Virus record (IMG/VR): IMGVR_UViG_3300046466_000672
Span: 1 to 47,625 of that record
DNA from: a virus
Direction: 5' to 3' (one strand)
Length of the DNA stretch: 47,625 nt
Below the pieces are notes generated by a model. It was not told where the DNA came from. It searched no databases and saw only the letters and a list, made by a program, of their open reading frames with translations. The translations under genes were made by a program, and so were the position numbers. Shown here one piece after another: positions 3 through 14,931 of this stretch (position 1 is its first letter; each line of letters begins with the position of its first letter).

Positions 3-1358
3 GCAAAGTTTAAAATCTTTTCATCAATGTCATTATATGGTCAACAGAATGATCCATATCTTGAATTATATGAGGAATTAAAGAAACTTCCTAATGTAGA
101 ATACTCTGCGGCAGTCGATCAAGAAGAATTGATTGAGTGTTATCAAGAATCTGCATTTTTTATTCATCCAAATATTTGGGAGGAAGTTTTCTGTGTTTCT
201 ATGGCAGAGGCAATGAAATGTGGTACATATCCAATTATCACAAATATAGGAGCACTCTCCGAAGTTGCCGGTGATAACTTTGCTTCGGTTGTTCCTATTG
301 ATGGAACCCGAACACCCGCAAAATATGAAGTTACTGAAACCTTTCTAAATACATTTGCAGAGATTTGCTGTACTGCTTTAGATTATTTTGAGGGAGACAG
401 AACATATTATAACCAAATCTCAAAATCTCTTTCCAATCATATTTCACAGAAGTGTGACTGGAAAAAAATTGCACAACAGTGGAAAAAACTGATTACTAAA
501 ATTACAAGTGGAGAACCCATGACTACAGAAAACACTGAACTGTCTTATAATCCCGTCACTTCTGAGCAGGCAGTGATGGATGATGAATATCTTCAGCAAG
601 CATTTGCCAATGTTCTGAGATGGGAGGATAGTGATAAGGAACTTGCACAAGGCAGAACTAATTTTCAGTTAGAAAAGTTTGCACTTCTTGATACTCATAC
701 TCTTCCTGTTGCCTTTGAGAATACTCTGAAGTCTCGTCGTCAGATGGCAGAGGGTTATATGTACAAACTCATTGAGATGAAAGAAAAGGTCCGTGAGTTT
801 GACTTTAAGTGGGCAGAAAAAGATAAGACTCAACCAATTTTTTGGGAAGAAGGTGGACCAGGTGGTGGTTCTAAGAAACTGTGTTGGTTTGATTTAGATG
901 AACTTACACTATCTCATTATCTGAAGTCTTCTGAACTTGAGATTCGTGATCGTCTTCACCAGATGCAACATCTAGATAAGATTCTTGATAAATTGATGGA
1001 AAAGAATGATGGCAAACCAGTCACCCGAGAACAATTCCTTGATGCTGATGGGCAGTATTGGGAAAGAAGATTTGCCGATCAGGCTATGGATGAAATGATC
1101 GCGGCACAAACTGGCATCTCTATTGGTAATCTACATAGTATGCGTCGTGCTTCTGCACCTGCAATTGTTGATAAGAGAAATGAATTGCCAGAAGGTTATA
1201 TGCCTCTGAATAAGATTCTTGAAAGTCCTCAAGGTAAGATGGACTTCCTGAATGATCTGCAGAAGAAAGTTCTCACAGGTATCCAAGAAGTCACTGGTGA
1301 AAATCTTGGTATGATTTCCGGTTCTCCAGAAGAGGAGCAAAAGAAACTCCAAGGTTGA
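3..1358 (+). CDS. Glycosyltransferase (GT-B, group 1-like C-terminal half) fused to an unknown C-terminal domain; 5' end outside window
   Basis: The reading frame is open to the left edge, so the true start lies upstream. The first visible part resembles the C-terminal half of a group 1 (GT-B) glycosyltransferase. A serine-rich start leads to LYGQQND, followed by FIHPNIWEEVFCVSMAEAMKCG and an ITNIGALSEV stretch. This is the usual acidic nucleotide-sugar binding region, in which the glutamates contact the sugar donor. From about position 519 the protein changes character into a charged, helical region of about 280 residues ending near the stop; I do not recognise it. An in-frame ATG at 519 preceded by GTGGAG could start this second part separately. 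The next gene begins one base after the stop, which suggests co-transcription with the adhesin island. A role in glycosylating a virion protein or cell-surface glycan is inferred from context only. Confidence 0.7.
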   Translation, partial: AKFKIFSSMSLYGQQNDPYLELYEELKKLPNVEYSAAVDQEELIECYQESAFFIHPNIWEEVFCVSMAEAMKCGTYPIITNIGALSEVAGDNFASVVPIDGTRTPAKYEVTETFLNTFAEICCTALDYFEGDRTYYNQISKSLSNHISQKCDWKKIAQQWKKLITKITSGEPMTTENTELSYNPVTSEQAVMDDEYLQQAFANVLRWEDSDKELAQGRTNFQLEKFALLDTHTLPVAFENTLKSRRQMAEGYMYKLIEMKEKVREFDFKWAEKDKTQPIFWEEGGPGGGSKKLCWFDLDELTLSHYLKSSELEIRDRLHQMQHLDKILDKLMEKNDGKPVTREQFLDADGQYWERRFADQAMDEMIAAQTGISIGNLHSMRRASAPAIVDKRNELPEGYMPLNKILESPQGKMDFLNDLQKKVLTGIQEVTGENLGMISGSPEEEQKKLQG

Positions 1359-1359
1359 T

Positions 1360-1893
1360 ATGAACCAGAAGATTATTGTTGCCGATGACTTTTATGATAT
1401 GGCACATCCATATTATAAAGGTATCGTAGAAGGTGAACCAATTTTTACTGATGAGGCACCCCAGAAAATTTCACATCTTCTGGGTCGTGATATAAAAGTA
1501 GAGAACTTATTTAATGAAGTTGCTCTATCCAATACTCCAAATCCAATCACTGCTAATCTTGCCTGTGATTGGATTGCGGTTATCTATCTGACGATGCCTG
1601 GTGATTGTGTATCACAAAGAGGTATGAGTTTTTATAGTCATTTAAGTACAGGATTTGATGCATTCCCTGATGAGTATGCCCGTCAGTTACATGGAATACA
1701 GACACAAGAAGACATTATGGCAACATTTAATGTTGATAATAGAGAAGAGTGGAAAGAATATTCTAATGTATATGTAAAATATAATCGTATTGTATTATTC
1801 GGTGCGGATCTCTGGCATTCATATGGTAAAGGTTTTGGTGAGCAACTAAATAACTCAATGATATACCAGAAGCTGTTAATACAAAATGCCTAG
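1360..1893 (+). CDS. DUF6445/2OG-Fe(II) oxygenase-like protein, probably non-catalytic
   Basis: This 177-residue protein shares its frame with the intact DUF6445-type protein at 6640-7257. Both begin (I)IV-DDFYD, share AVIY about 70-95 residues in, and carry KYNRIVLF followed by LWHS near the C-terminus. The family adopts the jelly-roll fold of 2-oxoglutarate/Fe(II) dioxygenases. When the two are aligned on WxAVIY, the H-x-D iron-binding pair of the intact copy (H85, D87) falls on T64 and N66 here. The C-terminal Arg that should bind 2-oxoglutarate falls on Ser. The distal His (H153 in LWHS) is kept. I therefore infer loss of oxygenase activity and perhaps a chaperone or binding role. The stop overlaps the start of the giant repeat gene by 8 bases, so translation of the two is probably coupled. 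Confidence 0.6.
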   Translation: MNQKIIVADDFYDMAHPYYKGIVEGEPIFTDEAPQKISHLLGRDIKVENLFNEVALSNTPNPITANLACDWIAVIYLTMPGDCVSQRGMSFYSHLSTGFDAFPDEYARQLHGIQTQEDIMATFNVDNREEWKEYSNVYVKYNRIVLFGADLWHSYGKGFGEQLNNSMIYQKLLIQNA

Positions 1894-4800
1894 AGGAATA
1901 TTTAGATTAAAACAGGTATATGAAGAGCAGTTATCAGGTAACTGGTCCGAGAAAGAAGATGTCTGGAATACTCCAAGTCCTTTTACTAAGGCACATCCTT
2001 TTGGTTACTTTGGTGGTGGTCGTGCTCCAAGTGTAGTATCAACAGTAGATCGTGTTGATTATTCTAATGATACTGCTACCGCAACAGCAAAAGGACCATT
2101 AAGTGTTGCTATAAGCATTATGGGAGCAACAGGTAATGCCAACTTCGGTTACTTTGGTGGGGGTTATCCTGGCCCAACAGTATCATCAGTAGATCGTGTT
2201 GATTATACTAATGACACTGCCACAGCAGCACCAAAAGGGCCATTAAGTCTTTCTAGATATGGTGTAGCAGCAACCGGCAATACTTCCTTTGGTTACTTTG
2301 GTGGTGGTTATGCTGGTGGTGGTGTGTCAACAGTAGACCGCATTGATTATTCTAATGACACTGCAACGGCATCAGCAAAAGGACCATTAAGTGTTGTCAG
2401 ACACTATCATGGAGCAACAGGTAATGCAGACTTTGGTTATTTTGGTGGTGGTTCTGGTCCAAAATCATCAGTAGACCGTATTGATTACTCTAATGACACT
2501 GCCACAGCATCACCAAAAGGGCCATTAAGTCTTGCTAGAGGTGGTCCAGCAGCAACAGGAAATTCATCCTTTGGTTACTTTGGTGGTGGTTATCCTGGTC
2601 CAAGGTCAACAGTAGATCGTATTGATTACTCTAATGACACTGCCACAGCAGTAGCAAAAGGACCATTAAGTAGTGCTAGATATTCACAGGGAGCAACGGG
2701 TAGTGCTTCCTTTGGTTATTTTGGTGGTGGCGAACCTGGTCCAGCAGTATCAAATGTAGACCGTATTGATTACTCTAATGATACAGCAACTGCAGCAGCA
2801 AAAGGACCATTAAGTGTTGCTAGATTTCATCTTGCAGCATCAAGTTCTCAGGCTAATGGAATTACAACTCCAACATTATTCCCGGCATCATCAGTAAGAG
2901 AAAATGTAGCACCACAAGGAACTGACTTTGGTTACTTTGGTGGTGGTAGAACGCCGACTACAGTATCGACAGTAAACCGTATTGATTATTCTAATGATAC
3001 TGCCACGGCATCAACAAAAGGACCATTAAGTAGTGCTAGATATAATGTTGCAGCAACAGGTAGTGCTTCTGGTGGTTACTTTGCTGGTGGTAATCCTTCA
3101 AGTGCAGTATCCACAGTAGACCGTATTGATTACTCTAATGACACAGCAACGGCAGTAGTCAAAGGACCATTAAGTGCTACTAGTAATGGTGCTGCTACTG
3201 TAGGCAATTCTGATTTTGGTTATTTTGCTGCTGCTAGTAATAAATCAACAGTAGACCGTATTGATTATACTAATGACTCTGCAACGGCATTAGTCAGAGG
3301 ACCATTAAGTTATTCAAGTTATGGTAGGGCAGGAACAGGTAATGCTGATTTTGGATATATTGGTGGAGGTGGTCCTGCATATTCAACGGTAGATCGTATT
3401 GATTATTCTAATGATACGGCAACAGCATCACCAAAAGGACCATTAAGTCTTGCTAGACGTACTATGGGAGCAACAGGTAATAGTTCTTTCGGATACTTTG
3501 GTGGTGCTTTCCCCGGTCCATATTCAACGGTAGATCGTATTGATTATTCTAATGACACTGCAACAGCAGTAGCAAAAGGACCATTAAGTGATGCTAGAGG
3601 TCAATTTGTAGCAACAGGTAATGCTGACTTTGGTTACTTTGGTGGGGGTTATAATGATAATCCTAATCAAGTGTCAACTGTAGACCGTATTGATTACTCT
3701 AACGACACTGCAACGGCAGCAGTCAAAGGACCATTAAGTGAAAAGATTCAGAACCATGCAGCAACAAGTTCCAGAGCCAATGCAATCCCACTCAAAGGAC
3801 CTGGTAACTTAGAAGTTCCAGTTTTAATGGGTGCTTTTAATGTTATAACACCACAAGGAACTGACTTTGGATACTTTGGTGGTGGACTTGCTCCCGGTTC
3901 TAGCTCATCAGTAGATCGTATTGATTACTCTAATGACACGGCAACAGCAGTAGAAAAAGGACCATTCAGTGTTACTAGATATGGTGCGGCAGCAACAGGA
4001 AACCAATCATTCGGTTACTTTGCTGGTGGTAATGGTCCATTATCATCAGTAGACCGTATTGATTATTCCAATGACACAGCAACAGCAGCAGCAAAAGGAC
4101 CATTAACTGCTGGTAAACGATACTATGGAGCAACTGGTAATTCATCTTTTGGTTACTTTGGTGGTGGGTCTGGTTCTGGTGGTCCAATATCATCAGTAGA
4201 CCGTATTGATTACTCTAATGACACTGCAACAGCATCACCAAAAGGACCATTAAGTGCTGCTAAGTATGTCACAGGAGCAACAGGTAATGCCAACTTTGGA
4301 TACATTGGTGGTGGATATCAAAATCCCAATCTCTATTCAACAGTAGATCGTATTGACTATTCTAATGACACTGCAACAGCAGTAGCAAAAGGACCATTAA
4401 GTGCTGGTAGACGGAGACTAGCAGCAACAGGTAATTCAGACTTTGGTTACTTTGGTGGTGGTAATGATCCCGAGCAGTCAACAGTAGATCGTGTTGATTA
4501 TTCTAACGATACCGCAACAGCACCAGCAAAAGGACCATTAAGTCTTGCTAGAGCATACTTAGCAGCAACCGGTAATGCTTCATTCGGTTACTTTGGTGGT
4601 GGTGAGTCACCACCTGGTCCAGGTGCAGTATCAACAGTAGATCGTGTTGATTACTCTAATGACACCGCAACGGCATCAGCAAAAGGACCATTAAGTGTTA
4701 CTAGAAGATATTTTAGAGCAACAAGTTCCAGAGACAATGGAATCCCGACCGAAAATATTGTAAATTATGCTGCAGGAACTCTAGCAACTCCTAACACCGG

Positions 4801-6610
4801 TTACTTTGCCGGTGGACTGGATGGTCCAGCAAAATCAATGATAGATCGTATTGATTACTCTAATGACACTGCAGCAGCATCAACAAAAGGACCATTAAGT
4901 GCTGCTACAGGTCGTCATGCAGGAACAGGCAATGCTTCTTTTGGTTACTTTGGTGGTGGTGAACCTGGTCCTGGTGCAAAATCAACAGTAGACCGTATTG
5001 ATTATCTAAATGATACCGCAACAGCATCACCAAAAGGTCCATTAAGTGCTGCCAGATATGGTTTATCAGCAACCGGTAATGCTAATTTTGGTTACTTTGG
5101 TGGTGGTATTCCTGCTCCTAATGCGTCAACAGTAGATCGTATTGATTATTCTAATGATACTGCAGCAGCAGTAGCAAAAGGACCATTTAGTATTGAGAGA
5201 AGAAATGGGGCATCAACAGGTAATCAATCATTTGGTTACTTTGCTGGTCATTTTCCTGCAAAATCAACAGTAGATCGTATTGATTATTCGAATGATACTG
5301 CAAATGCACCGGCAAAAGGTCCATTAAGTCTTGCTAGAGGATACTTAGCAGCAACCGGCAATGCTTCATTTGGTTACTTTGGTGGTGGTAATAGTCCTGA
5401 GGTGTCATCAGTAGACCGTATTGATTACTCTAATGACAGTGCAACGGCATCACCAAAAGGACCATTAAGTGCTGCTAGAAGATACTTAGCAGCAACAGGT
5501 GATGCTAATTTTGGATACTTTGGTGGTGGTATAAACCCCACAAAATCAACAGTAGACCGTATTGATTATTCTAATGATACTGCAACGGCATCACCAAAAG
5601 GACCATTGAGTACTACTAGATATTACCTCGGGGCAGCAAGTGCCAGAGCCAACGGATTTACTGTGGTCGGTCCAGCAGTGGTTTCTAATGCTGCTGCAGT
5701 CGCAGGATCATTTAACCCAACAACATTTGGTTACTTCGGTGGTGGTAGATCTCCAAGTTATGTAACAACAGTAGATCGTATTGATTACTCCAATGATACG
5801 GCAGCTGCGACAACAAAAGGACCATTGAGTGCTGCTAGAAGTTATCTTGCAGCAACAGGTAATAGTTTCTTTGGTTACTTTGGTGGTGGATATCAAGGTT
5901 CGGCCAAACAAACCATAGTAGACCGTATTGATTATACTAATGACACTGCCACAGCATCACCAAAAGGACCATTGAGTGTCATTAGAAATAAATTAGCAGC
6001 AACAGGTAATACTGACTTTGGATACTTTGGTGGTGGTATTATCTCCGCACATGCGTCAACAGTAGACCGTATTGATTATTCTAGTGATACTGGAACAACA
6101 CCAACAAAAGGACCATTAAGTGTTGCTAGATATGATTTAGCAGCAACAGGTAATGCTTCCTTTGGTTATTTTGCTGGTGGTGAGTCAGCACCTGGTCCAA
6201 TATTATCAACAGTAGACCGTATTGATTATTCTAATGATACCGCAACAGCAGTAGCAAAAGGACCATTAAGTGCTGCCAACGATCGGTTAGCAGCAACAGG
6301 TAATTCTTCCTTTGGTTACTTTGGTGGGGGTTATCCTGAAAAATCAATAGTAGATCGTATTGATTACTCTAATGATACGGCAACAGCAGTAGCAAAAGGA
6401 CCATTAAGTGTTGGTAGAAGACTATCGGGAGCAACAGGTAATGCTTCCTTTGGTTATTTTACTGGTGGTGCGACTCCTGGTGTAGCATCATCAGTAGACC
6501 GTATTGATTACTCTAATGACACGGCAACGGCATCAGCAAAAGGACCATTAAGTCTTGCTAGATATAGTTTAGGAGCAACTTCAGCAGGAGCAAATGCACT
6601 TCCATCATAG
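1886..6610 (+). CDS. Giant kelch-like repeat protein 1: five predicted six-bladed beta-propellers
   Basis: The protein has 1574 residues. After a 38-residue N-terminus containing RGIF and DVWNTPSPF, nearly all of it is a repeat of 45-50 residues with the core FGYFGGG, a variable loop, STVDRIDYSNDTATA, two variable residues, KGPLS, variable residues and ATGN. I count 30 repeats. After every sixth repeat the ATGN end is replaced by an S-x-ANxxP-type segment and a linker of about 15-35 residues, giving five blocks that start near 2000, 2927, 3866, 4799 and 5726. Repeat length and the GGG/tyrosine pattern resemble kelch blades, so five consecutive six-bladed propellers are inferred. No signal peptide or membrane segment is visible. 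Length, repetition and the island context suggest a virion adhesin or tail-fibre-associated protein. The ATG overlaps the previous gene's stop, with no clear Shine-Dalgarno. Confidence 0.85.
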   Translation: MPRGIFRLKQVYEEQLSGNWSEKEDVWNTPSPFTKAHPFGYFGGGRAPSVVSTVDRVDYSNDTATATAKGPLSVAISIMGATGNANFGYFGGGYPGPTVSSVDRVDYTNDTATAAPKGPLSLSRYGVAATGNTSFGYFGGGYAGGGVSTVDRIDYSNDTATASAKGPLSVVRHYHGATGNADFGYFGGGSGPKSSVDRIDYSNDTATASPKGPLSLARGGPAATGNSSFGYFGGGYPGPRSTVDRIDYSNDTATAVAKGPLSSARYSQGATGSASFGYFGGGEPGPAVSNVDRIDYSNDTATAAAKGPLSVARFHLAASSSQANGITTPTLFPASSVRENVAPQGTDFGYFGGGRTPTTVSTVNRIDYSNDTATASTKGPLSSARYNVAATGSASGGYFAGGNPSSAVSTVDRIDYSNDTATAVVKGPLSATSNGAATVGNSDFGYFAAASNKSTVDRIDYTNDSATALVRGPLSYSSYGRAGTGNADFGYIGGGGPAYSTVDRIDYSNDTATASPKGPLSLARRTMGATGNSSFGYFGGAFPGPYSTVDRIDYSNDTATAVAKGPLSDARGQFVATGNADFGYFGGGYNDNPNQVSTVDRIDYSNDTATAAVKGPLSEKIQNHAATSSRANAIPLKGPGNLEVPVLMGAFNVITPQGTDFGYFGGGLAPGSSSSVDRIDYSNDTATAVEKGPFSVTRYGAAATGNQSFGYFAGGNGPLSSVDRIDYSNDTATAAAKGPLTAGKRYYGATGNSSFGYFGGGSGSGGPISSVDRIDYSNDTATASPKGPLSAAKYVTGATGNANFGYIGGGYQNPNLYSTVDRIDYSNDTATAVAKGPLSAGRRRLAATGNSDFGYFGGGNDPEQSTVDRVDYSNDTATAPAKGPLSLARAYLAATGNASFGYFGGGESPPGPGAVSTVDRVDYSNDTATASAKGPLSVTRRYFRATSSRDNGIPTENIVNYAAGTLATPNTGYFAGGLDGPAKSMIDRIDYSNDTAAASTKGPLSAATGRHAGTGNASFGYFGGGEPGPGAKSTVDRIDYLNDTATASPKGPLSAARYGLSATGNANFGYFGGGIPAPNASTVDRIDYSNDTAAAVAKGPFSIERRNGASTGNQSFGYFAGHFPAKSTVDRIDYSNDTANAPAKGPLSLARGYLAATGNASFGYFGGGNSPEVSSVDRIDYSNDSATASPKGPLSAARRYLAATGDANFGYFGGGINPTKSTVDRIDYSNDTATASPKGPLSTTRYYLGAASARANGFTVVGPAVVSNAAAVAGSFNPTTFGYFGGGRSPSYVTTVDRIDYSNDTAAATTKGPLSAARSYLAATGNSFFGYFGGGYQGSAKQTIVDRIDYTNDTATASPKGPLSVIRNKLAATGNTDFGYFGGGIISAHASTVDRIDYSSDTGTTPTKGPLSVARYDLAATGNASFGYFAGGESAPGPILSTVDRIDYSNDTATAVAKGPLSAANDRLAATGNSSFGYFGGGYPEKSIVDRIDYSNDTATAVAKGPLSVGRRLSGATGNASFGYFTGGATPGVASSVDRIDYSNDTATASAKGPLSLARYSLGATSAGANALPS
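2000..6607 (+). repeat. Array of 30 coding repeats (about 140-150 bp each) in five groups of six
   Basis: The DNA of the first giant gene is a long imperfect direct repeat with a period of about 135-155 bp. Stretches such as GATTACTCTAATGACACTGC recur with few changes, while two windows per unit, after the GGTGGTGGT run and after AAAGGACCATTAAGT, vary freely. Groups start near 2000, 2927, 3866, 4799 and 5726. The near-identical units make this region prone to recombination and assembly collapse. Confidence 0.9.
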
Positions 6611-6643
6611 TATGCTATAATAAACAAAAGATTGATTATATGA
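6608..6643 (+). promoter_or_regulatory. Extended -10 promoter within a 36-bp segment duplicated at 12824
   Basis: The segment runs from the stop codon of giant gene 1 through the start of the next gene and is identical to 12824-12859. It carries an extended -10, TATGCTATAATA, with TATAAT at 6616-6621. No good -35 lies 17 bases upstream. The predicted transcript start would be about 12 bases before the ATG at 6640, leaving a very short leader without a Shine-Dalgarno sequence. Confidence 0.6.
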
Positions 6644-7257
6644 GACAGAACATTATTGTTGTTGATGACTTTTATGATAATCCAGAAGAGGTCAGGAACT
6701 TTGCACTGAACGCAGAGTTTCCTGATCCTGGTGATGACTATACATATCCTGGAAGAAACTCAGAAGGTGCTTATTATTCTGAACAAATTCATAGAAAGTT
6801 TGAGGATCTTGCCAAGGAACCATTGATTCCTGCAGATAAAAATGGATACTTTCGTATTTCATTAGAGAATGCCTCACATAAACAAGACGTTCATGTAGAT
6901 CCATCATGGGAATGGGGTGCCGTAATCTATATGTCAGACCCAAAGGATTGTGTTGATGAAGGTGGCACATCATTCTGGAGACATAATACTCTAAAGTATG
7001 AGAACATTCCCAAGACAGATTTTGAGGCACAACATCACGGATGGCCAACATACAAAGAGTGTTGGTGGACGATGGTCTATGGTGATGGACTAGATAGAGA
7101 TAAATGGACACGATACTTTCTGTGTCCGATGAAGTATAATCGTTTAGTATTATTCAGAACTCATCTGTGGCACTCACATAATTATAATTTTGGTGATACA
7201 CTAGAGAATGGTCGTATGGTCCAGTTGTTCTTTTTTAATCCAGTGAAGGAGTGGTGA
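6640..7257 (+). CDS. DUF6445-type 2OG-Fe(II) dioxygenase-like protein
   Basis: This 205-residue protein opens with IIVVDDFYDNPEEVRNFAL, a typical DUF6445 N-terminus, and has YPGRNS near residue 37. The candidate iron ligands are H85 and D87 (VHVD) and H178 (LWHS), with R192 in GRMVQLFFF as the likely 2-oxoglutarate contact. A GGTSFWRH segment sits near residues 108-115. This is the complete set expected of an active dioxygenase, which would couple decarboxylation of 2-oxoglutarate to hydroxylation of a substrate. The substrate is unknown. The gene lies between two giant repeat genes and abuts the sulfotransferase gene (TGA then ATG), so modification of the repeat proteins is a reasonable but untested guess. 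Expression probably starts from the extended -10 at 6616-6621. Confidence 0.75.
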   Translation: MRQNIIVVDDFYDNPEEVRNFALNAEFPDPGDDYTYPGRNSEGAYYSEQIHRKFEDLAKEPLIPADKNGYFRISLENASHKQDVHVDPSWEWGAVIYMSDPKDCVDEGGTSFWRHNTLKYENIPKTDFEAQHHGWPTYKECWWTMVYGDGLDRDKWTRYFLCPMKYNRLVLFRTHLWHSHNYNFGDTLENGRMVQLFFFNPVKEW

Positions 7258-8091
7258 ATGAAAACATATCATTTTATGGCAGGTCTTCCACGATCCGGAA
7301 GCACCTTATTGAAGAGTTTGATTGACCAGAATCCAAACATTCATACAGAACCTGTGAGTTCTGTAATGGAATTGATGTATCATACGGAAGAATACTTTAA
7401 GAAATCAGAACAGTATCAGGGATATCAAAAACCACAGAATGCTCATAAGATTATCAGTAGTTTTATAGAGAATCAATATTATGAAAGAGAAGAAGAGATA
7501 ATCATTGACCACTGCCGTGCCTGGCCAAATAATATAGAACGATTAAAGACTTATATTACACCTAATCCAAAAATCATATGTCCTGTCCGTAATATCACAG
7601 AAGTATTGACTTCATTTATTACAATGATACATCGCAACTCCGATGAATTTAATTTTATTGATAAGGCACTGATTGATGGTGGGTTCAGTGTGGATGATGA
7701 TAATCGTTGTCAGTATTTGATGGGTGATGATGGTATTGTGGAACAGGCACTATGGGCACAGTCTCAGGCATTCGTTCGGCACGATGATAAGTATTTGTTG
7801 ATGGTTGAGTATGATGATTTAGTCAATACTCCAGAAGAAACGATGAGAAGAATTTATAATTTCTTGGAGGTTGATTACTATCATCACGATTTTAATAATG
7901 TGCAGAATAATCATAGAGAAAGTGAAGACCAGTGGAACCTGAAGGATATGCATTATGTTCGTGATAAGGTCAAGAAAATATCAAAGAAACCCGAAGATGT
8001 TTTATCTCCTTTTATTCTAAATAGGTATAAGAAACTGGAATACTGGAAGTATCCGGACAGCCCCTATTTGATAAAAAATGGCAGTAACTAA
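7258..8091 (+). CDS. Sulfotransferase (tyrosylprotein-sulfotransferase-like P-loop)
   Basis: This 277-residue protein has the sulfotransferase 5'-phosphosulfate loop near its start: FMAGLPRSGSTLLKSLID at about residues 6-23. The form PRSGSTL followed by LIDQNP is close to the PRSGTTL...LDAHP pattern of tyrosylprotein sulfotransferases and the Sulfotransfer_3 group. The second PAPS-binding element is seen as CPVRNITEVLTS, with R111 and S119. The enzyme should move a sulfate group from PAPS to a hydroxyl on a protein, sugar or lipid. It starts directly after the DUF6445 stop, and its end overlaps the start of giant gene 2 by 14 bases, so all three are probably translated together. The giant proteins carry a tyrosine flanked by acidic residues in almost every repeat, making them candidate substrates. 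That link is inference. Confidence 0.8.
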   Translation: MKTYHFMAGLPRSGSTLLKSLIDQNPNIHTEPVSSVMELMYHTEEYFKKSEQYQGYQKPQNAHKIISSFIENQYYEREEEIIIDHCRAWPNNIERLKTYITPNPKIICPVRNITEVLTSFITMIHRNSDEFNFIDKALIDGGFSVDDDNRCQYLMGDDGIVEQALWAQSQAFVRHDDKYLLMVEYDDLVNTPEETMRRIYNFLEVDYYHHDFNNVQNNHRESEDQWNLKDMHYVRDKVKKISKKPEDVLSPFILNRYKKLEYWKYPDSPYLIKNGSN

Positions 8092-11000
8092 TACAAGAGG
8101 AATATTTTCATTACTTGATGTAAGAGAAAGACAGGGTGCCGGAGTTTGGTCTACGAAAGGAGATGTTTGGAATACTCCGAGTCCTTTTTTGGTGCCACAA
8201 GGATTTGCTACTGGATATTTTGCTGGCGGGGCATATACAATTTCAACAGTAGATCGTATTGATTACTCTAATGACACTGCAACGGCATCGGTAAAAGGAC
8301 CATTAAGTGTTGGTAGAAATTCTCTAGGAGCAACAGGTAATAAGGACTTTGGTTACGTTGGTGGTGGTGCGAGTCCTTCTGTAGTATCAACAGTAGACCG
8401 CATTGATTATTCTAGTGATACTGGAACAACACCAGCAAAAGGACCACTTAGTGATGTTAGAAGACGTCAAGCAGCAACAGGTAATGCTTCCTTCGGTTAC
8501 TTTGGTGGTGGTACTCCATCATCACAGGTTAGATTAACAATAGTAGACCGCATTGATTACTCTAATGATACTGCAACGGCATCACCAAAAGGACCATTAA
8601 GTTCTGCTAGATCATACCATGCGGCAACAGGTAATTCTTCCTTTGGATACTTTGCTGGTGGTTCCACTCCAAGTAAAGTAACAACAGTAGACCGTATTGA
8701 TTATTCTAATGACACGGCAACAGCATCAGTCAAAGGACCATTAAGTCTTGCTAGAGATACTTCGGGAGCAACAGGTAATGCTGATTTTGGTTACTTTGGT
8801 GCTGGTTATGGATCTAGCATATTTTCAACAGTAGATCGTATTGATTATTCTAATGATACTGCGACAGCAGCAGCAAAAGGACCATTGAGTGCTGTTAAAG
8901 CAGCTTTAGGAGCAACTGGTAATAGTTCCTTTGGATACTTTGGTGGTGGTTATCCTGGTCCTGCATATTCAACAGTAGACCGTATTGATTACTCTAATGA
9001 CACCGCAACGGCATCAGTCAAAGGACCATTAAGTGTTGCCAGATCATTCATGAAAGCATTAAGTTCCAGAGCTAATGCAATTCCCGCAAAATTATTACAA
9101 CCGGCATCATCAGTAAGAACGGGTGAGATAGCACCACAAGGATCTGACTTTGGTTACTTTGGTGGAGGTTATGATGGTTCTACTACCGTATCAACAGTAG
9201 ACCGTATTGATTATTCTAATGACACTGCAACGACAGTGGCAAAAGGACCATTAAGTGTTGCTAAAAATGGTATGGGAGCAACAGGTAATGCTCCCTTTGG
9301 ATATTTTGGTGGTGGTAGTCCTGGACCATTATCATCAGTAGACCGTATTGATTACTCTAATGACACTCCAACGGCATCAGCAAAAGGACCATTGAGTGTT
9401 GCTAGATATTATTTGGCAGCAACAGGTAATAGTGATTTTGGTTATTTTGCTGGTGGTGATACGATTATTTCAACAGTAGATCGTGTTGATTATAATAATG
9501 ACACTGCAACAGCAGCAGTAAAAGGACCATTGAGTACTGCTAGAGATGAATTAGCAGCAACAGGTAATACTTCTTTCGGTTACTTTGGTGGAGGTGCAAC
9601 ACCTACTGTAGTATCATCAATAGATCGCATTAATTATGCTAATGATACTGCTACTGCATCACCAAAAGGACTATTGAGTCAAGGTAGAAAAGATTTAGCA
9701 GCAACAGGTAATGCTTCTTTTGGATACTTTGGTGGTGGAGCTTCTCCTAGTAATGTATCAACAGTAGATCGTATTGATTACTCTAATGATACTGCTACGG
9801 CATCACCTAAAGGATCATTGAGTACTGCTAAGTTTTTTCTAAGTGCAACAGGTGATCAGAACTTTGGTTATTTTGGTGGTGGTCTTAATCCTGCTCTAAG
9901 TCCGGCTAGAAAAACAACAGTAGATCGTATTGATTACTCTAATGATACTGTAACAGCATCACCTAAAGGTTCATTAAACACTGAAAAAACTGCTTTAGGA
10001 GCATCAAGTTCCAGAGCCAATGCAATGCCACTCAAAGGACCTGGTAACCTAGAAGTTCCAGTCTCATTGGGTGGGTTTAGTGCTCCTGGTCTTGTTCCTG
10101 TTTCTGGTGGCATTGGTTATTTTGTTGGTGGAACTAGCCCTACTACGTCAGTAATAGATCGTATTGATTACTCTAATGACACCGCAACGGCAGTAGAAAA
10201 AGGACCACTAAGTGCTGCTAGATATGACCATGCCGGAACAGGTAGTGCGGATTTTGGATACCATGGTGGTGGTCGTCCTTCTCCACATAATCGGGTAGAG
10301 CGTATTGATTATGGTAATGATACCGCAACAGCAGTAGTAAAAGGACCATTAAGTGGAACTCATTATAGTTTATCAGCAGTAGGTAATAAGGACTTTGGTT
10401 ATTTTGCTGGTGGTTTTTTAAGTATATCGAGAGTGAGTCGTGTTGATTATTCCAATGATACTGGAACAGCACCAGCAAAAGGACCATTAAGTGTTGGTAG
10501 AGGAAGTGCCGGGGCAACAGGTAATCAAGACTTTGGTTACATTGCTGGTGGTAATCTTCCTTCTGGGTTCTTATCAACAGTAGATCGTATTGATTATTCT
10601 AATGATACTGCAACGGCATCACCAAAAGGTCCATTAAGTGTTGCCAAATATCGTCTAGCAGGAACGGGTAATAGTGAGTTTGGTTACCTTGCTGGTGGTT
10701 CTCCTAATTCTGGGACACTAGTAGAGCGTATTGATTATTCTAATGATACTGCTACAGCATCACCAAAAGGAAACTTGGAGACTAGTAAAGAACTTCTTGC
10801 GGCAACGGGTAGTGAAAACTTTGGATACTTTGGTGGTGGTTTGAGTAATGGATCAATAGTAGACCGTATTGATTACTCCAATGATACTGCTACAGCATCA
10901 CCAAAAGGACCATTGACTGTTGCTAGATATCAACGATCTGCGTCAAGTCGTACTGCTAATGGAATTGCATTAAAGGAGGCAGGAGAAATAAATTATGCTG

Positions 11001-12826
11001 CAGGAACTCTAGCAACTCCTAACACCGGTTACTTTGGTGGTGGTTATACTCCTAGTGCAAGATCATTAGTAGATCGTATTGATTATGCTAACGATACTGC
11101 TACAGCAGTAGCAAAAGGACCATTAAGTGTTGCCACATATCAATTTGGAGCAACAGGTAATGCTTCCTTTGGTTACTTTGCCGGTGGTATTCCTGGAATA
11201 TCAACAGTAAACCGTATTGATTACTTAAATGACACTGGAACAACGCCAACAAAAGGACCATTAAGTGCTGGTAGACGAAATGTGTCGGGAACAGGTAATG
11301 CCGACTTCGGTTACTTTGCCGGTAGCTACCCTCCAGCAACAACAGTAGACCGTATTGATTACTCCAATGATACTGCAACGGCATCACCTAAAGGACCATT
11401 AAGTGCTGCTAGATATAGTGCGGCCGCAACAGGTAATCAATCTTTTGGTTACTTTGGTGGTGGTAATTTAACTTCAATATCAACAGTAGATCGTATTGAT
11501 TATTCTAATGACACTGCAACGGCATCACCAAAAGGACCATTAAGTTCTGCTAAACGAGGTGTAGGAGCAACAGGTAATGCTTCCTTTGGTTACTTTGCTG
11601 GTGGTGTTGGTTCAGGACCAATATCAACAACAGTAGATCGTATTGATTATTCTAGTGATAGTGTAGATGCATCACCAAAAGGATCATTGAGTGCTGTCAG
11701 ACGTTCACAAGGAGCAACAGGTAATAGTTCTTTTGGTTACCATGGTGCTGGATATGGTTCTCCTGCAACTTTATCATCAGTAGACCGTGTTGATTATTCC
11801 AATGATACTGCAACGGCATCACCAAAAGGACCATTGAATACTGCTCTATATGGTTTGGTAGCAGCAAGTGCCAGAGCCAACGGATTCGGTCCAATAGTAG
11901 GTCCATCAGTCGTTTCTAATGCTGCTGCAGTCGCAGGGTCATTTAATCCAACAACCTTTGGTTACTTTGGTGGTGGTTATAGTCCAGACCGTTCAACAGT
12001 AGACCGTATTGATTACTCTAACGACACTGCAACAGCAGTAGCAAAAGGACCATTGACTGCTGCCAGATATAACTTAGCAGCAACTGGTAATTCTTTCTTT
12101 GGTTATTTTGGTGGTGGTGAATCTCCAATAATATCAACAGTAGACCGTATTGATTATTCTAATGACACTGCAACAGCAGTAGCAAAAGGACCATTAAGTG
12201 TTGCTAGATGGGGTTTAGCAGCAACAGGTAATTCTTCTTTCGGTTACTTTGCTGGTGGTGTATCTTCTGGATACACTTCAGTAATAGATCGTATTGATTA
12301 TTCTAACGACACCGCAACGGCAGCAGCAAAAGGACCATTAAGTGATGAAACATATTACTTAGCAGCAACAGGCAATAATGACTTTGGTTACTTTGGTGGT
12401 GGTATTCATCCTGGTTCAAAATCAACAGTAGACCGTATTGATTATTCTAATGACACTGCCACAGCAGTCAAAGGTCCATTAAGTCTTGCTAGAAATCGTT
12501 TAGCAGCAACCGGTAATGCTTCCTTTGGTTACTTTGGTGGTGGTGGTTATCCTAGTGCAAAATCAACAGTAGATCGTATTGATTATTCTAACGACACCGC
12601 AACGGCATTAGCAAAAGGTCCATTGAGTGTTGCTAAAAGAGATTTGGCAGCAACAGGTAATCAGGACTTTGGTTACTTTGGTGGTGGTGCTCCTGGTCCA
12701 AAATCAACAATAGACCGTATTGATTACTCTAATGATACTGCAACGGCACCATCTAAAGGACCATTGAGTCTTGCTAGACATGGTTTGGGAGCAACTTCAG
12801 CAGGAGCAAATGCACTTCCACAATAG
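8078..12826 (+). CDS. Giant kelch-like repeat protein 2: five predicted six-bladed beta-propellers
   Basis: The protein has 1582 residues and is a paralogue of the protein at 1886. Its N-terminus again has RGIF and DVWNTPSPF. It then carries 30 repeats of the FGYFGGG...VDRIDYSNDTATA...KGPLS...ATGN type, in five blocks of six starting near 8210, 9149, 10112, 11027 and 11957. Linkers match the other giant by rank: LKGPGNLEVPV after block 2, NYAAGTLATPNT after block 3 and SNAAAVAGSFNPTT after block 4. The end ATSAGANALP is shared. Repeat 4 of block 5 lacks one residue before KGPLS. Block 3 repeats deviate most from the consensus, for example VERIDYGNDT and VSRVDYSNDT. The start ATG lies inside the sulfotransferase gene. 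A surface adhesin is the best guess; no enzymatic motif is seen. Confidence 0.85.
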   Translation: MAVTNTRGIFSLLDVRERQGAGVWSTKGDVWNTPSPFLVPQGFATGYFAGGAYTISTVDRIDYSNDTATASVKGPLSVGRNSLGATGNKDFGYVGGGASPSVVSTVDRIDYSSDTGTTPAKGPLSDVRRRQAATGNASFGYFGGGTPSSQVRLTIVDRIDYSNDTATASPKGPLSSARSYHAATGNSSFGYFAGGSTPSKVTTVDRIDYSNDTATASVKGPLSLARDTSGATGNADFGYFGAGYGSSIFSTVDRIDYSNDTATAAAKGPLSAVKAALGATGNSSFGYFGGGYPGPAYSTVDRIDYSNDTATASVKGPLSVARSFMKALSSRANAIPAKLLQPASSVRTGEIAPQGSDFGYFGGGYDGSTTVSTVDRIDYSNDTATTVAKGPLSVAKNGMGATGNAPFGYFGGGSPGPLSSVDRIDYSNDTPTASAKGPLSVARYYLAATGNSDFGYFAGGDTIISTVDRVDYNNDTATAAVKGPLSTARDELAATGNTSFGYFGGGATPTVVSSIDRINYANDTATASPKGLLSQGRKDLAATGNASFGYFGGGASPSNVSTVDRIDYSNDTATASPKGSLSTAKFFLSATGDQNFGYFGGGLNPALSPARKTTVDRIDYSNDTVTASPKGSLNTEKTALGASSSRANAMPLKGPGNLEVPVSLGGFSAPGLVPVSGGIGYFVGGTSPTTSVIDRIDYSNDTATAVEKGPLSAARYDHAGTGSADFGYHGGGRPSPHNRVERIDYGNDTATAVVKGPLSGTHYSLSAVGNKDFGYFAGGFLSISRVSRVDYSNDTGTAPAKGPLSVGRGSAGATGNQDFGYIAGGNLPSGFLSTVDRIDYSNDTATASPKGPLSVAKYRLAGTGNSEFGYLAGGSPNSGTLVERIDYSNDTATASPKGNLETSKELLAATGSENFGYFGGGLSNGSIVDRIDYSNDTATASPKGPLTVARYQRSASSRTANGIALKEAGEINYAAGTLATPNTGYFGGGYTPSARSLVDRIDYANDTATAVAKGPLSVATYQFGATGNASFGYFAGGIPGISTVNRIDYLNDTGTTPTKGPLSAGRRNVSGTGNADFGYFAGSYPPATTVDRIDYSNDTATASPKGPLSAARYSAAATGNQSFGYFGGGNLTSISTVDRIDYSNDTATASPKGPLSSAKRGVGATGNASFGYFAGGVGSGPISTTVDRIDYSSDSVDASPKGSLSAVRRSQGATGNSSFGYHGAGYGSPATLSSVDRVDYSNDTATASPKGPLNTALYGLVAASARANGFGPIVGPSVVSNAAAVAGSFNPTTFGYFGGGYSPDRSTVDRIDYSNDTATAVAKGPLTAARYNLAATGNSFFGYFGGGESPIISTVDRIDYSNDTATAVAKGPLSVARWGLAATGNSSFGYFAGGVSSGYTSVIDRIDYSNDTATAAAKGPLSDETYYLAATGNNDFGYFGGGIHPGSKSTVDRIDYSNDTATAVKGPLSLARNRLAATGNASFGYFGGGGYPSAKSTVDRIDYSNDTATALAKGPLSVAKRDLAATGNQDFGYFGGGAPGPKSTIDRIDYSNDTATAPSKGPLSLARHGLGATSAGANALPQ
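8210..12823 (+). repeat. Second array of 30 coding repeats in five groups of six
   Basis: The organisation is the same as at 2000-6607, with a period of about 135-155 bp and groups starting near 8210, 9149, 10112, 11027 and 11957. Conserved core DNA alternates with two variable windows per unit. Units from the two arrays are similar enough that inter-array recombination is plausible. Confidence 0.9.
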
Positions 12827-12859
12827 TATGCTATAATAAACAAAAGATTGATTATATGA
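12824..12859 (+). promoter_or_regulatory. Second copy of the duplicated extended -10 promoter
   Basis: This copy is identical to 6608-6643, from the stop codon of the giant gene to the ATG of the following dioxygenase gene. TATAAT is at 12832-12837, preceded by TGC. As in the first copy, no -35 and no Shine-Dalgarno is apparent, and the ATG follows the -10 by about 18 bases. Confidence 0.6.
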
Positions 12860-13518
12860 TTAATAATCCACTGACACATATTTTGATCCGACCGAATGTA
12901 ATTTCTCCTGAAGGTATTCGGGAGATGGTGGATCATATTAAACAATCACCCTGTGAAGACTTATCTGTTTTTGATTCGGAGACAACGAATAGAACAGGTG
13001 AGACATCATGGCAGGTTGATAAGAAGACAAGAGACACACAAATTGTTCCTATGGGAGATTTGTATCCCAAGATTACGGAACTTCTTCGTCATGCCGTAAA
13101 AGAAGTTATCAATCCTTTCTATGGTATTGAGGTAACCAGTAGTGAAGTCCCACAGGTTCTATCCTATGGTATTGGTGGACACTACAAACCTCATATTGAT
13201 GGTGAGAGTATCTGGGTCACACCAAGAGGTGAAAAGATTTGGAAGAAATCTACGGATAGAGATATCTCTATGGTCTTTTATCTCAATGATGATTTTGAGG
13301 GTGGAGATTTTATTTTTCCAGAACATCATATTCGTGTAAGACCTGAACCTGGTATGATGGTTTGCTTCCCTTCCAGTCATTATTATATGCACGGAGTAGA
13401 ACCAGTGACAAGAGGAAAAAGATATAGTATAGTGTGTTGGGCTACGGTAAAAGGTCAACCAAGTATGGACGAAATTAATAATCAGTTATCTCAAGAGTAT
13501 GGAGTCAAAGTAATTTAA
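12856..13518 (+). CDS. 2OG-Fe(II) dioxygenase, prolyl-4-hydroxylase-like
   Basis: This 220-residue protein matches the P4H/PKHD-type 2-oxoglutarate dioxygenases. GGHYKPHID gives the iron ligands H113 and D115. The YLNDDFEGGDFIFP strand pair (about 142-155) is typical of the family. PGMMVCFPSSHYYMHGVEPV gives the distal His H179, and GKRYS gives the 2-oxoglutarate Arg R189. All catalytic residues are present, so activity is likely. Family members hydroxylate proline or other residues of proteins, or small molecules; the substrate here is unknown. The gene uses the duplicated promoter, follows giant gene 2 by 29 bases and lies three bases before the carbamoyltransferase gene. Hydroxylation of the repeat proteins, which have a proline in the KGPLS core of most repeats, is inference. 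Confidence 0.85.
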   Translation: MINNPLTHILIRPNVISPEGIREMVDHIKQSPCEDLSVFDSETTNRTGETSWQVDKKTRDTQIVPMGDLYPKITELLRHAVKEVINPFYGIEVTSSEVPQVLSYGIGGHYKPHIDGESIWVTPRGEKIWKKSTDRDISMVFYLNDDFEGGDFIFPEHHIRVRPEPGMMVCFPSSHYYMHGVEPVTRGKRYSIVCWATVKGQPSMDEINNQLSQEYGVKVI

Positions 13519-13521
13519 ATT

Positions 13522-14931
13522 ATGGCAAACATTTTAGGAGTGCAATTTGGACATGATGGATCCGTTTGCCTTGTTAAGAATGGTAAGTTAGAGTTTGCCA
13601 TTGGAACAGAAAGAATTACTGGTATTAAAAAGCAACAAGGATTTACAGACGAGGTTATAAATTATGCTTTGGACTCTTGTGGTTTAACAGTTGATGATAT
13701 TGATTGTGTTGCCACCAATGATTTTAAGCAAGAATTTTTTGGTAATGAATACCTTGTAGATAATTTTATTATTCAGGGTAGAGAGATTAAGTGTTATATT
13801 ATTTCTCATCATCTGGCACACTGTGCCTCTGCATATTATACTAGTCCATTTAATGAGGCACATTGTTTCAGTATGGATTGTAGTATGGGAAAGATGGAAG
13901 CAAACTCTTTGGTGGCATATGGTAAAGGGAAGAAACTTTTTGCCGAATATTGTCCCGGAGAAATGGTCGGAGTATTATATGGTGAAGTAACAGAGAAGTT
14001 AGGACTCGGACCTGCACTTCATAAGGCAGGAACAACAATGGGTCTCTCATCATATGGAACACCATTTGATTTTGATTATCAATCTTATACTGATGATATC
14101 AAACATAAGATGAATGTGGCAGCATCCGTTCAGAATTTGTTTGAGGATAAAGTATTGAGTGTCTTAAATGATATAGATCAGGAGTCCGATAACCTTTGTC
14201 TCTCCGGAGGATCATTTTTAAATTGTAATGCTAACTCAGAGGTCGTAAGAAAATCTAAATTTAAACAGTTTCATCACTTTCCGGCATGTGGTGATGATGG
14301 AACGGCAGTTGGTTCTGCACTTTATGTTGCTCATCATATTCTTGGAGAGGCAAGGTATGATTATGAACCACAAGACATCTGTTATACCGGAAGAGATCAT
14401 CCAAGTCAGACACCGGACTATAATTACATAGCAAGACAAATTGCCGATGGTAAAATCATTGGTTGGTTTCAAGGCAAATCAGAGTTTGGTCCAAGAGCAC
14501 TAGGTAATCGTTCTATTCTTGCTGACCCAAGAAACTTTCATAATCGTGAACTCATCAATCATGTTGTGAAGAATAGAGAATGGTTCCGTCCTTTTGCTCC
14601 TGTTGTATTAGAAGAATGCTATCAAGATTGGTTTGATTTTCCTATATCCAGTCCTTATATGCTTTATACTGCACAGGTGAAGCAACCAGAAAAAGTTCCA
14701 GCCATAACTCACGTTGATGGGTCTGCTAGATTTCAGACAGTCACAGAGAAATCTAATAAGCACTACTATAATATTATCAAAGCATTTGGAGAACTAACTG
14801 GTGTGCCTGTTCTACTGAATACAAGTTTAAATGGAAACGGACAACCTATATTAGAAACCGAAGAGGACGCACAAGAGTTTTACAAGAATTCTAAACTTGA
14901 TATGATGATTATCAATGGTATAAATATTTGA
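13522..14931 (+). CDS. Carbamoyltransferase (NodU/CmcH family)
   Basis: This 469-residue protein has both parts of the family. The N-terminal Kae1-like domain begins ILGVQFGHDGSVCLVKNG and contains SHHLAHCASAYY with the metal-binding histidines (about residues 94-105). The C-terminal region includes GWFQGKSEFGPRALGNRSIL, FRPFAPVVL and LLNTSLN, all hallmark motifs. These enzymes make carbamoyl-adenylate from carbamoyl phosphate and ATP and transfer the carbamoyl group to a hydroxyl, often on a sugar. In this island the acceptor could be a glycan or hydroxyl group on the giant adhesins, or a host polysaccharide; neither can be decided from the sequence. The gene follows the dioxygenase by 3 bases and ends just before a T4-type late promoter. 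Confidence 0.9.
   Translation: MANILGVQFGHDGSVCLVKNGKLEFAIGTERITGIKKQQGFTDEVINYALDSCGLTVDDIDCVATNDFKQEFFGNEYLVDNFIIQGREIKCYIISHHLAHCASAYYTSPFNEAHCFSMDCSMGKMEANSLVAYGKGKKLFAEYCPGEMVGVLYGEVTEKLGLGPALHKAGTTMGLSSYGTPFDFDYQSYTDDIKHKMNVAASVQNLFEDKVLSVLNDIDQESDNLCLSGGSFLNCNANSEVVRKSKFKQFHHFPACGDDGTAVGSALYVAHHILGEARYDYEPQDICYTGRDHPSQTPDYNYIARQIADGKIIGWFQGKSEFGPRALGNRSILADPRNFHNRELINHVVKNREWFRPFAPVVLEECYQDWFDFPISSPYMLYTAQVKQPEKVPAITHVDGSARFQTVTEKSNKHYYNIIKAFGELTGVPVLLNTSLNGNGQPILETEEDAQEFYKNSKLDMMIINGINI
14919..14926 (+). promoter_or_regulatory. T4-type late promoter TATAAATA
   Basis: An exact TATAAATA lies at the end of the carbamoyltransferase gene, 22 bases before the ATG of the gene at 14948. This is the usual position for a late promoter read with the phage late sigma factor gp55 and coactivator gp33. 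Confidence 0.6.

Follow-up and report, generated by a model that had tools for sequence, protein, structure and literature searches.

Kelch-like propeller proteins have been described in several phages. Available excerpts of the report on phage vB_PcaM_CBB describe the kelch-like proteins CBB_550, 552 and 554, of which CBB_552 was found in the virion, and cite earlier kelch reports for giant Pseudomonas and Yersinia phages (PMC5259590); excerpts of two further sources mention a kelch-repeat protein in cyanophage P-HM2 (PMC3037559) and an enrichment of kelch repeats in long-read marine viral data (PMC9238414). Here, we describe two large repeat proteins, A and B, encoded in IMG/VR virus record IMGVR_UViG_3300046466_000672 (positions 1 to 47,625, hereafter the window), a 47.6-kb record of a marine T4-like cyanomyovirus that carries gp32, gp59, PhoH, ThyX, baseplate and tail-fibre genes and matches Synechococcus phage S-SKS1 DNA at 87% across part of the gp59-gp32 region. 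Phage kelch propellers being already known, what is new is the string architecture, with its proposed role as a modular, diversifying recognition arm; in the open-access PMC literature, which leaves subscription papers outside, we found no account of six-bladed propeller chains, whole-propeller exchange or an oxygenase/sulfotransferase cassette. We consider it fairly probable that A and B are late-made, modular, diversifying recognition arms attached to the virion.

Both proteins begin with a short N-terminal segment followed by five groups of six repeats:

1886..6610, + strand: protein A, 1574 aa, type-I N-terminus, 30 repeats in five putative six-bladed propellers
1886..1999, + strand: A N-terminal 38-residue segment, RGIFRLKQVYEEQLSGNWS..DVWNTPSPF, helix 8-16 predicted
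2000..2854, + strand: A propeller 1, six repeats, predicted to form a closed six-bladed ring
2855..2926, + strand: A linker 1
2927..3778, + strand: A propeller 2, six blades 0.89-0.98 identical to propeller 2 of the type-III protein on L006
3779..3865, + strand: A linker 2, ..LKGPGNLEVPV..
3866..4735, + strand: A propeller 3
4736..4795, + strand: A linker 3, ..VNYAAGTLATPN
4796..5650, + strand: A propeller 4, first half of the two-propeller model
5651..5725, + strand: A linker 4, ..VVSNAAAVAGSFNPTT
5726..6592, + strand: A propeller 5, predicted to form a closed six-bladed ring
8078..12826, + strand: protein B, 1582 aa, type-II N-terminus, 30 repeats in five putative six-bladed propellers
8078..8209, + strand: B N-terminal 44-residue segment, TRGIFSLLDVRERQGAGVWS..DVWNTPSPF
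8210..9073, + strand: B propeller 1
9149..10018, + strand: B propeller 2
10112..10957, + strand: B propeller 3
11024..11878, + strand: B propeller 4
11957..12808, + strand: B propeller 5

Repeats in A and B take the form FGYFGGG-(variable)-STVDRIDYSNDTATAS.KGPLS-(variable)-ATGN. A first-pass annotation of the window had counted 30 repeats per protein, arranged as 5 x 6 with a linker after each sixth, and this was confirmed by two simple sequence patterns (29 and 30 matches in A, 30 and 29 in B) and by a repeat hidden Markov model (HMM), which found 30 units of 45-50 residues in each protein, grouped 6,6,6,6,6; units 6, 12, 18 and 24 are each followed by a linker of 22-32 residues. The annotated replacement of ATGN by an S-x-ANxxP-type segment also holds, with an SSRANAIP-like end at every sixth repeat of a group. 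Exact DNA repeats within A reach at most 46 bp, B has none of at least 45 bp, and the longest shared by A and B is 55 bp; a separate IMG/VR contig, L007, carries B with all 30 blades identical across the aligned repeat columns. Because exact repeats are this short and the L007 blades are identical, collapse of the array during assembly is unlikely, and we rejected an assembly artefact as the source of the repeat counts in the two proteins. Since A and B share no long identical tracts, recent gene conversion between them was rejected as well, and Rfam gave nothing at its gathering threshold within the window.

The six-repeat rule holds across relatives. Two scans of viral contigs gave 73 loci, many overlapping on the same contigs, and the repeat HMM (48 positions, iterated) was run on all open reading frames (ORFs) of 78 loci, including two from the window's own record and three from the phage collection. 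It found repeats in 159 ORFs; removing 28 cut by locus ends, 42 near-duplicates and eight ORFs of S-SKS1 and AG-345 viruses left 81 distinct complete proteins, a set that retains the L007 copy of B, which the duplicate filter missed. Repeat totals in this set were 6 (3 proteins), 12 (39), 17 (1), 18 (12), 24 (8), 25 (1), 30 (10) and 36 (7), so that 79 of 81 carry a multiple of six, far above chance, and in 78 of these 79 the breaks fall only at six or twelve. The two exceptions are a 25-repeat gene on L012, which is split across two frames and whose 6-repeat piece is counted among the 79, and a protein on L027 with 17 repeats, one below 18. The ORFs set aside had 9, 3, 3, 5 and 9 repeats in S-SKS1, where the frames are broken, and 18, 13 and 15 in the AG-345 viruses, whose repeats are divergent enough that the HMM may miss some. 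In the S-SKS1 record (NC_020851.1; L001, L081), propeller genes are broken into short frames, and both termini of the linear sequence carry pieces of them; repeats seem to have caused trouble in that assembly, and it is to this record that an artefactual repeat count may apply. A cellular origin of the family was considered and rejected: in 84,980 bacterial and archaeal genomes, a single scan by sequence pattern returned 72 stretches, none a relative by tblastn.

Structure prediction strongly supports closed six-bladed kelch-type rings for propellers 1 and 5 of A, two of the ten propellers in the window and those matched individually. An AlphaFold2 model of the A N-terminus and propeller 1, built from 68 aligned sequences, has a pLDDT (predicted local distance difference test) of 91.1 and a pTM (predicted template modelling score) of 0.87. 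Among the 50 Foldseek matches listed for propeller 1, the best solved structures are SAKe6 designs and Keap1 (E 1.3e-19, target TM scores up to 0.92); VIA aligned it with SAKe6AC at Z 39.5 (270 residues, root-mean-square deviation 1.7 Å) and with the whole Keap1 ring (residues 325-609) at Z of about 38. Since the propeller 1 model aligns with the complete Keap1 ring, it is predicted to be closed and to have six blades; its strand order begins and finishes at Keap1's own ends. In Keap1, the final strand of the chain completes blade 1. The model of A propellers 4-5 is weaker (pLDDT 82.6, pTM 0.57), and this pTM leaves the relative orientation of the propellers unfixed; all 50 VIA matches listed for it fall on the second, propeller 5, with a six-bladed kelch match at Z 39.0. 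These end-to-end matches support the six-bladed beta-propeller proposed in the first-pass annotation, and neither an open solenoid nor another blade number was seen in the predicted structures. The linker does not, as had been expected, join the last and first blades; with the model spanning a whole Keap1 ring, it connects propellers.

Profile comparisons agree with this fold assignment. A propeller profile matches SAKe6FR (E 3.3e-16) and KLHL12 (5e-8), and the profile of phrog_19111 matches A at E 1.5e-269 and B at 7.6e-271. By definition, a kelch repeat has a double glycine after its second strand, followed by spaced Tyr and Trp. Across 1446 repeats, glycine occupies columns 6 and 7 at frequencies of 0.90 and 0.91 and Tyr/Phe is retained at column 21, while Trp is outside the four commonest residues at every column from 22 to 35. 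No Pfam family matched A or B at E up to 1. With this and the canonical Trp missing, 'kelch' applies to the fold of A and B only and not to their sequence motif. Identity with RCC1 or another Pfam repeat was rejected for want of a Pfam match; three proteins of phage S-SRM01 do match RCC1 strongly.

Variation in these repeats is concentrated in two loops. Over the same 1446 repeats, the most variable of the 48 columns are 8-13 and 36, 39-41, with entropy peaks of 3.4-3.9 bits at columns 8, 9, 12, 13 and 36, 39, 40; strand columns are mostly below 2 bits. These positions follow the FGYFGGG and KGPLS strands and are, in kelch terms, the b-c and d-a loops. VIA pairs A37 with Keap1 325 and A321 with Keap1 609, so that, if the alignment is ungapped near its ends, A46 (column 8) falls on Tyr334 and A314 (column 39) on Ser602, residues that excerpts of a Keap1 study assign to the Nrf2/inhibitor site in the ligand pocket (PMC6891428). 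Tyr makes up 19% of residues at columns 8, 39 and 40 overall and 25% in the window, versus about 5% at constant columns, and the residue combination at columns 8 and 39-41 is unique in each of the 60 window blades. For 65 near-orthologous blade pairs, pooled and selected by identity, the ratio of nonsynonymous to synonymous substitution (dN/dS) was 1.79 in the b-c loop and 1.55 in the d-a loop, compared with 0.10 in strand b, 0.18 in c, 0.09 in the c-d turn (columns 22-27), 0.56 in d and 0.31 in a. The smaller and noisier set of 18 blades from A and its relative on L012 gave 0.87 (b-c), 2.85 (d-a), 0.17 (b), 0.12 (c), 0.04 (c-d turn), 1.58 (d) and 1.01 (a). General scans of window ORFs showed no diversity-generating reverse transcriptase, for which no dedicated search was made. 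The pattern suggests that the propellers vary most on a likely binding face and are swappable recognition arms. Some kelch propellers are enzymes, and the fold matches include phage proteins that bear the name galactose oxidase; an enzymatic role, for example galactose-oxidase-like or glycan-cleaving, is nonetheless highly improbable here, as the best matches are binding propellers (Keap1/KLHL) and SAKe designs and the most variable positions lie on the face expected to hold a pocket.

Blades of A and B at the same index have a likeness of 0.661 versus a background of 0.646, and the same index is best in 1 of 30, although the linkers of the two proteins correspond position by position. This near-random likeness implies that the duplication is old or that blades have been replaced since. 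The equal counts in A and B had been read as selection on the numbers of both propellers and blades. The first-pass reading stands for blades, where sequence comparison strongly supports selection on six (79 of 81 relatives, with A and B blades no longer pairing by index), and has to be qualified for the five propellers, whose number ranges from 1 to 6 between relatives. Complete paralogues on the same contig do have equal propeller numbers in 20 of 25 contigs (shuffle mean 6.0, 0/10,000) and, leaving out contigs in which all have two, in 8 of 13 (shuffle mean 1.7, 2/10,000); shared ancestry, which the shuffle keeps, or recombination could account for this.

Blade-by-blade matches indicate that whole propellers move. 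A matches a type-I relative on L012 by index at propellers 1-3 (0.73-1.00), with propellers 4-5 mostly at background (0.56-0.77), and a type-III gene on L006, which is the same contig as L012, at propeller 2 (0.89-0.98); values for its remaining four propellers are mostly background (0.51-0.83). In a scan of 233 propellers from 75 proteins (about 27,000 pairs), 28 pairs matched by index with an excess of more than 0.10; the rise covered all six blades in 18 and at least five in 24, and position from one end was kept in 27. As the matches come in such blocks, the propeller probably acts as a unit of exchange, apparently moving as a whole from gene to gene and from phage to phage. Homogenisation of linkers within genomes was unsupported: in 23 hand-picked proteins from ten sets, one of them from two near-identical contigs, same-position likeness was 0.53 within and 0.56 between genomes, compared with 0.36 for other positions. 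Separately, in the two-propeller group about 140 residues precede the propellers of one paralogue, an N-terminal region that is some 100 residues shorter in the others (L051:16982-19237; similar ORFs on L037, L050, L052, L055, L057, L058, L059, L062, L073 and L077).

Two alternatives bear on propeller number. Duplication or recombination between paralogues, without selection on number, could by itself have produced the equal counts of A and B, as the position-matched linkers and the propeller exchange in relatives would allow. We regard this as rather unlikely as a full account, given that blades hardly match by index yet six per ring persists in 79 of 81 proteins; for the number of propellers by itself it may hold. 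The propellers might instead be whiskers or spacers, stiff beads that set arm length, with neutral loop variation. Length does shift in whole propellers and is usually matched between paralogues on one contig, but variation concentrated in two loops that align with the Keap1 ligand site, the high pooled dN/dS and a c-d turn held at 0.09 make this explanation improbable.

The propeller genes are accompanied by a conserved cassette of enzymes:

3..1358, + strand: glycosyltransferase, open at the left window edge, a recurrent cassette member
1360..1893, + strand: DUF6445a, DUF6445-type, without the HxD pair
6640..7257, + strand: DUF6445b, directly after A, HxD...H...R, putative 2-oxoglutarate (2OG)-Fe(II) oxygenase
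7258..8091, + strand: sulfotransferase, overlapping the start of B, nearest solved relatives protein-tyrosine sulfotransferases
12856..13518, + strand: 2OG-Fe(II) oxygenase, directly after B, closest NCBIfam models Fe2+-dependent dioxygenase / PKHD-type hydroxylase
13522..14931, + strand: NodU/Nol-like carbamoyltransferase

2OG-Fe(II) oxygenases carry an HxD...H metal triad and a downstream Arg. The corresponding residues are each more than 85% conserved in the oxygenase after B (H113, D115, H179, R189; 39 sequences) and in DUF6445b (H85, D87, H178/H180, R192; 37 sequences). HxD is not kept in DUF6445a, which, judging from these residues, may be an inactive partner of the active oxygenases. 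The nearest solved chains to the sulfotransferase are those of protein-tyrosine sulfotransferase 1 (E 4.7e-5); its match to the NoeE model covers 30 residues at E 5e-6, far under the model cut-off. A search of 50,697 phage records placed homologues of this sulfotransferase in five phages (eight records): S-SKS1, AG-345-L05 and AG-345-O18 also bear the propellers, in S-SRM01 the gene adjoins three RCC1 propeller genes, and the fifth is S-SCSM1. DUF6445b homologues occur in 10 phage records and 2OG homologues in 290, so widely that the presence of the latter by itself says little. In the 81 cases where a gene was recognised within 1 kb downstream of a propeller ORF, the nearest is the 2OG oxygenase in 33, DUF6445b in 24, the glycosyltransferase in 22 and a propeller piece in 2, a count that recognises only genes resembling the window's own. 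In open PMC literature on tyrosine sulfation and bacteriophages, none of the matches listed was judged relevant.

Relatives have up to three propeller genes with differing N-terminal types, so that a third may lie beyond the left window edge; inspection by eye shows a short G-[IV]-F-x-L-like motif at the start of most N-termini. In L002, L006 and L071 the propeller genes are preceded by ORFs that resemble tail-fibre proteins of the window, and S-SKS1 has an annotated tail fibre gene about 5 kb upstream of its own. Elsewhere in the window, tandem DNA repeats of 24, 30 and 42 bases occur at 34115-34333 and 34941-35031, inside a baseplate-hub/tail-lysozyme-like ORF (32603-35071).

Expression timing was examined through ATAAATA, the core of T4-type late promoters, which is rarer in the window than expected (6 seen versus 16.9):

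14920, 24594(-), 26480, 27298, 32571, 43174: ATAAATA sites

All six lie within about 110 bases upstream of ORF starts, and four precede tail or baseplate genes. In relatives, the motif stands upstream of 21 of 31 2OG and 19 of 30 DUF6445b genes, mostly 25-30 bases before the gene, and of 6 of 32 glycosyltransferase, 1 of 19 DUF6445a, 0 of 10 carbamoyltransferase and 0 of 38 replication or metabolism genes. The motif counts fit late expression of the cassette oxygenases, and more weakly that of the propellers themselves.

Kelch propellers are usually protein-binding, and A and B could, instead of being virion parts, act inside the infected cell as scaffolds for host or phage proteins, as eukaryotic and poxvirus kelch domains do. 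Poxvirus kelch proteins are among the viral fold matches, and the virion location of the family is itself inferred. We judge such a role unlikely, as the tail-fibre-like genes beside propeller genes, the late-type motifs on partner genes and the one-face diversification fit adsorption better, and a CBB kelch protein is virion-borne according to excerpts of its report (PMC5259590).

In the recognition-arm reading that we favor, A and B would be two of up to three paralogous cyanomyovirus proteins, each opening with a short N-terminal segment that probably serves as an anchor, after which closed six-bladed kelch-like propellers are strung together. Each propeller would present a constant scaffold and one variable face made of two loops; linkers would hold positional identity while whole propellers are swapped among paralogues and phages, as the identity blocks imply, changing binding specificity with ring closure kept intact. 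The propellers would probably be modified by enzymes encoded next to them, namely the 2OG oxygenases, the tyrosine-sulfotransferase-like enzyme and the glycosyltransferase.

Several observations weigh against this reading. Virion attachment of A and B is presumed, and their N-terminal segment points to no recognised docking site on virions: in the fetched loci, six ORFs without propellers gave a best E of 4.7, none convincing, and tblastn of the first 43 residues of A against phages hit 35 records, all at E of 2 or more. No ATAAATA precedes A, B or their enzymes in the window, and in relatives it precedes only 10 of 78 propeller and 0 of 32 sulfotransferase genes. S-SCSM1, with a sulfotransferase homologue and no annotated propeller gene within 7 kb, speaks against strict linkage. 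The variable face is assigned by alignment to Keap1, the dN/dS values come from pooled, identity-selected blades, and in the single A/L012 comparison the d strand (1.58) exceeds the b-c loop (just 0.87).

A more elaborate version has the three paralogues forming one in-register, antibody-like virion assembly, which would explain their equal propeller numbers. Dozens of different faces would carry Tyr/Gly/Ser/Arg-rich hypervariable loops that are tyrosine-sulfated and hydroxylated or glycosylated by dedicated enzymes encoded in the same late cassette, with whole propellers re-assorted to track shifting Synechococcus surfaces. We consider this version distinctly unlikely.

The structural unit (six blades), the probable unit of exchange (the propeller) and the two diversifying loops, which probably share one face, are all legible in the sequence, giving a function-level hypothesis for a phage family that lacks annotation although dozens of viral contigs carry it. 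For the 'auxiliary' oxygenase, sulfotransferase and glycosyltransferase genes it would offer a candidate substrate in place of a link to host metabolism and, if true, would make cyanophage host recognition and phage protein modification directly testable.

Among the closest known systems is S-SKS1: its SWZG_00289 and neighbours match 76% of A by tblastn at 40% identity and share the sulfotransferase and 2OG neighbourhood of the window, although its propeller proteins are annotated as hypothetical and their frames are broken, unlike the intact A and B. The phrog_19111 family, of unknown function, is the same repeat family, but has no function, fold or repeat architecture in the PHROGs library. 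The CBB proteins A0A1L2CVR1 and A0A1L2CVR7 are among the fold matches of A, yet at 285 and 280 residues they have the length of one propeller, unlike the strings of A and B, and CBB is outside the four phage records matched by tblastn of A. Keap1, KLHL12 and SAKe6 form closed six-bladed rings like those predicted for A (VIA Z 37.5-39.5 among the 50 matches listed), whereas this family strings one to six rings per chain and A and B have no other Pfam domain. Freshwater Synechococcus phage S-SRM01 has three propeller genes with a homologous sulfotransferase, 2OG oxygenase and glycosyltransferase, as in the window cassette; these propellers, however, belong to another repeat family, RCC1 (6-7 stretches per protein, Pfam E 5e-64 to 2e-77), with enough repeats for one ring each. 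A long tail fibre gene precedes its RCC1 genes (L079; 555-1589, 2253-3470 and 7801-8982), whose annotation reads 'regulator of chromosome condensation'. S-SRM01 shows a second propeller type in a similar cassette.

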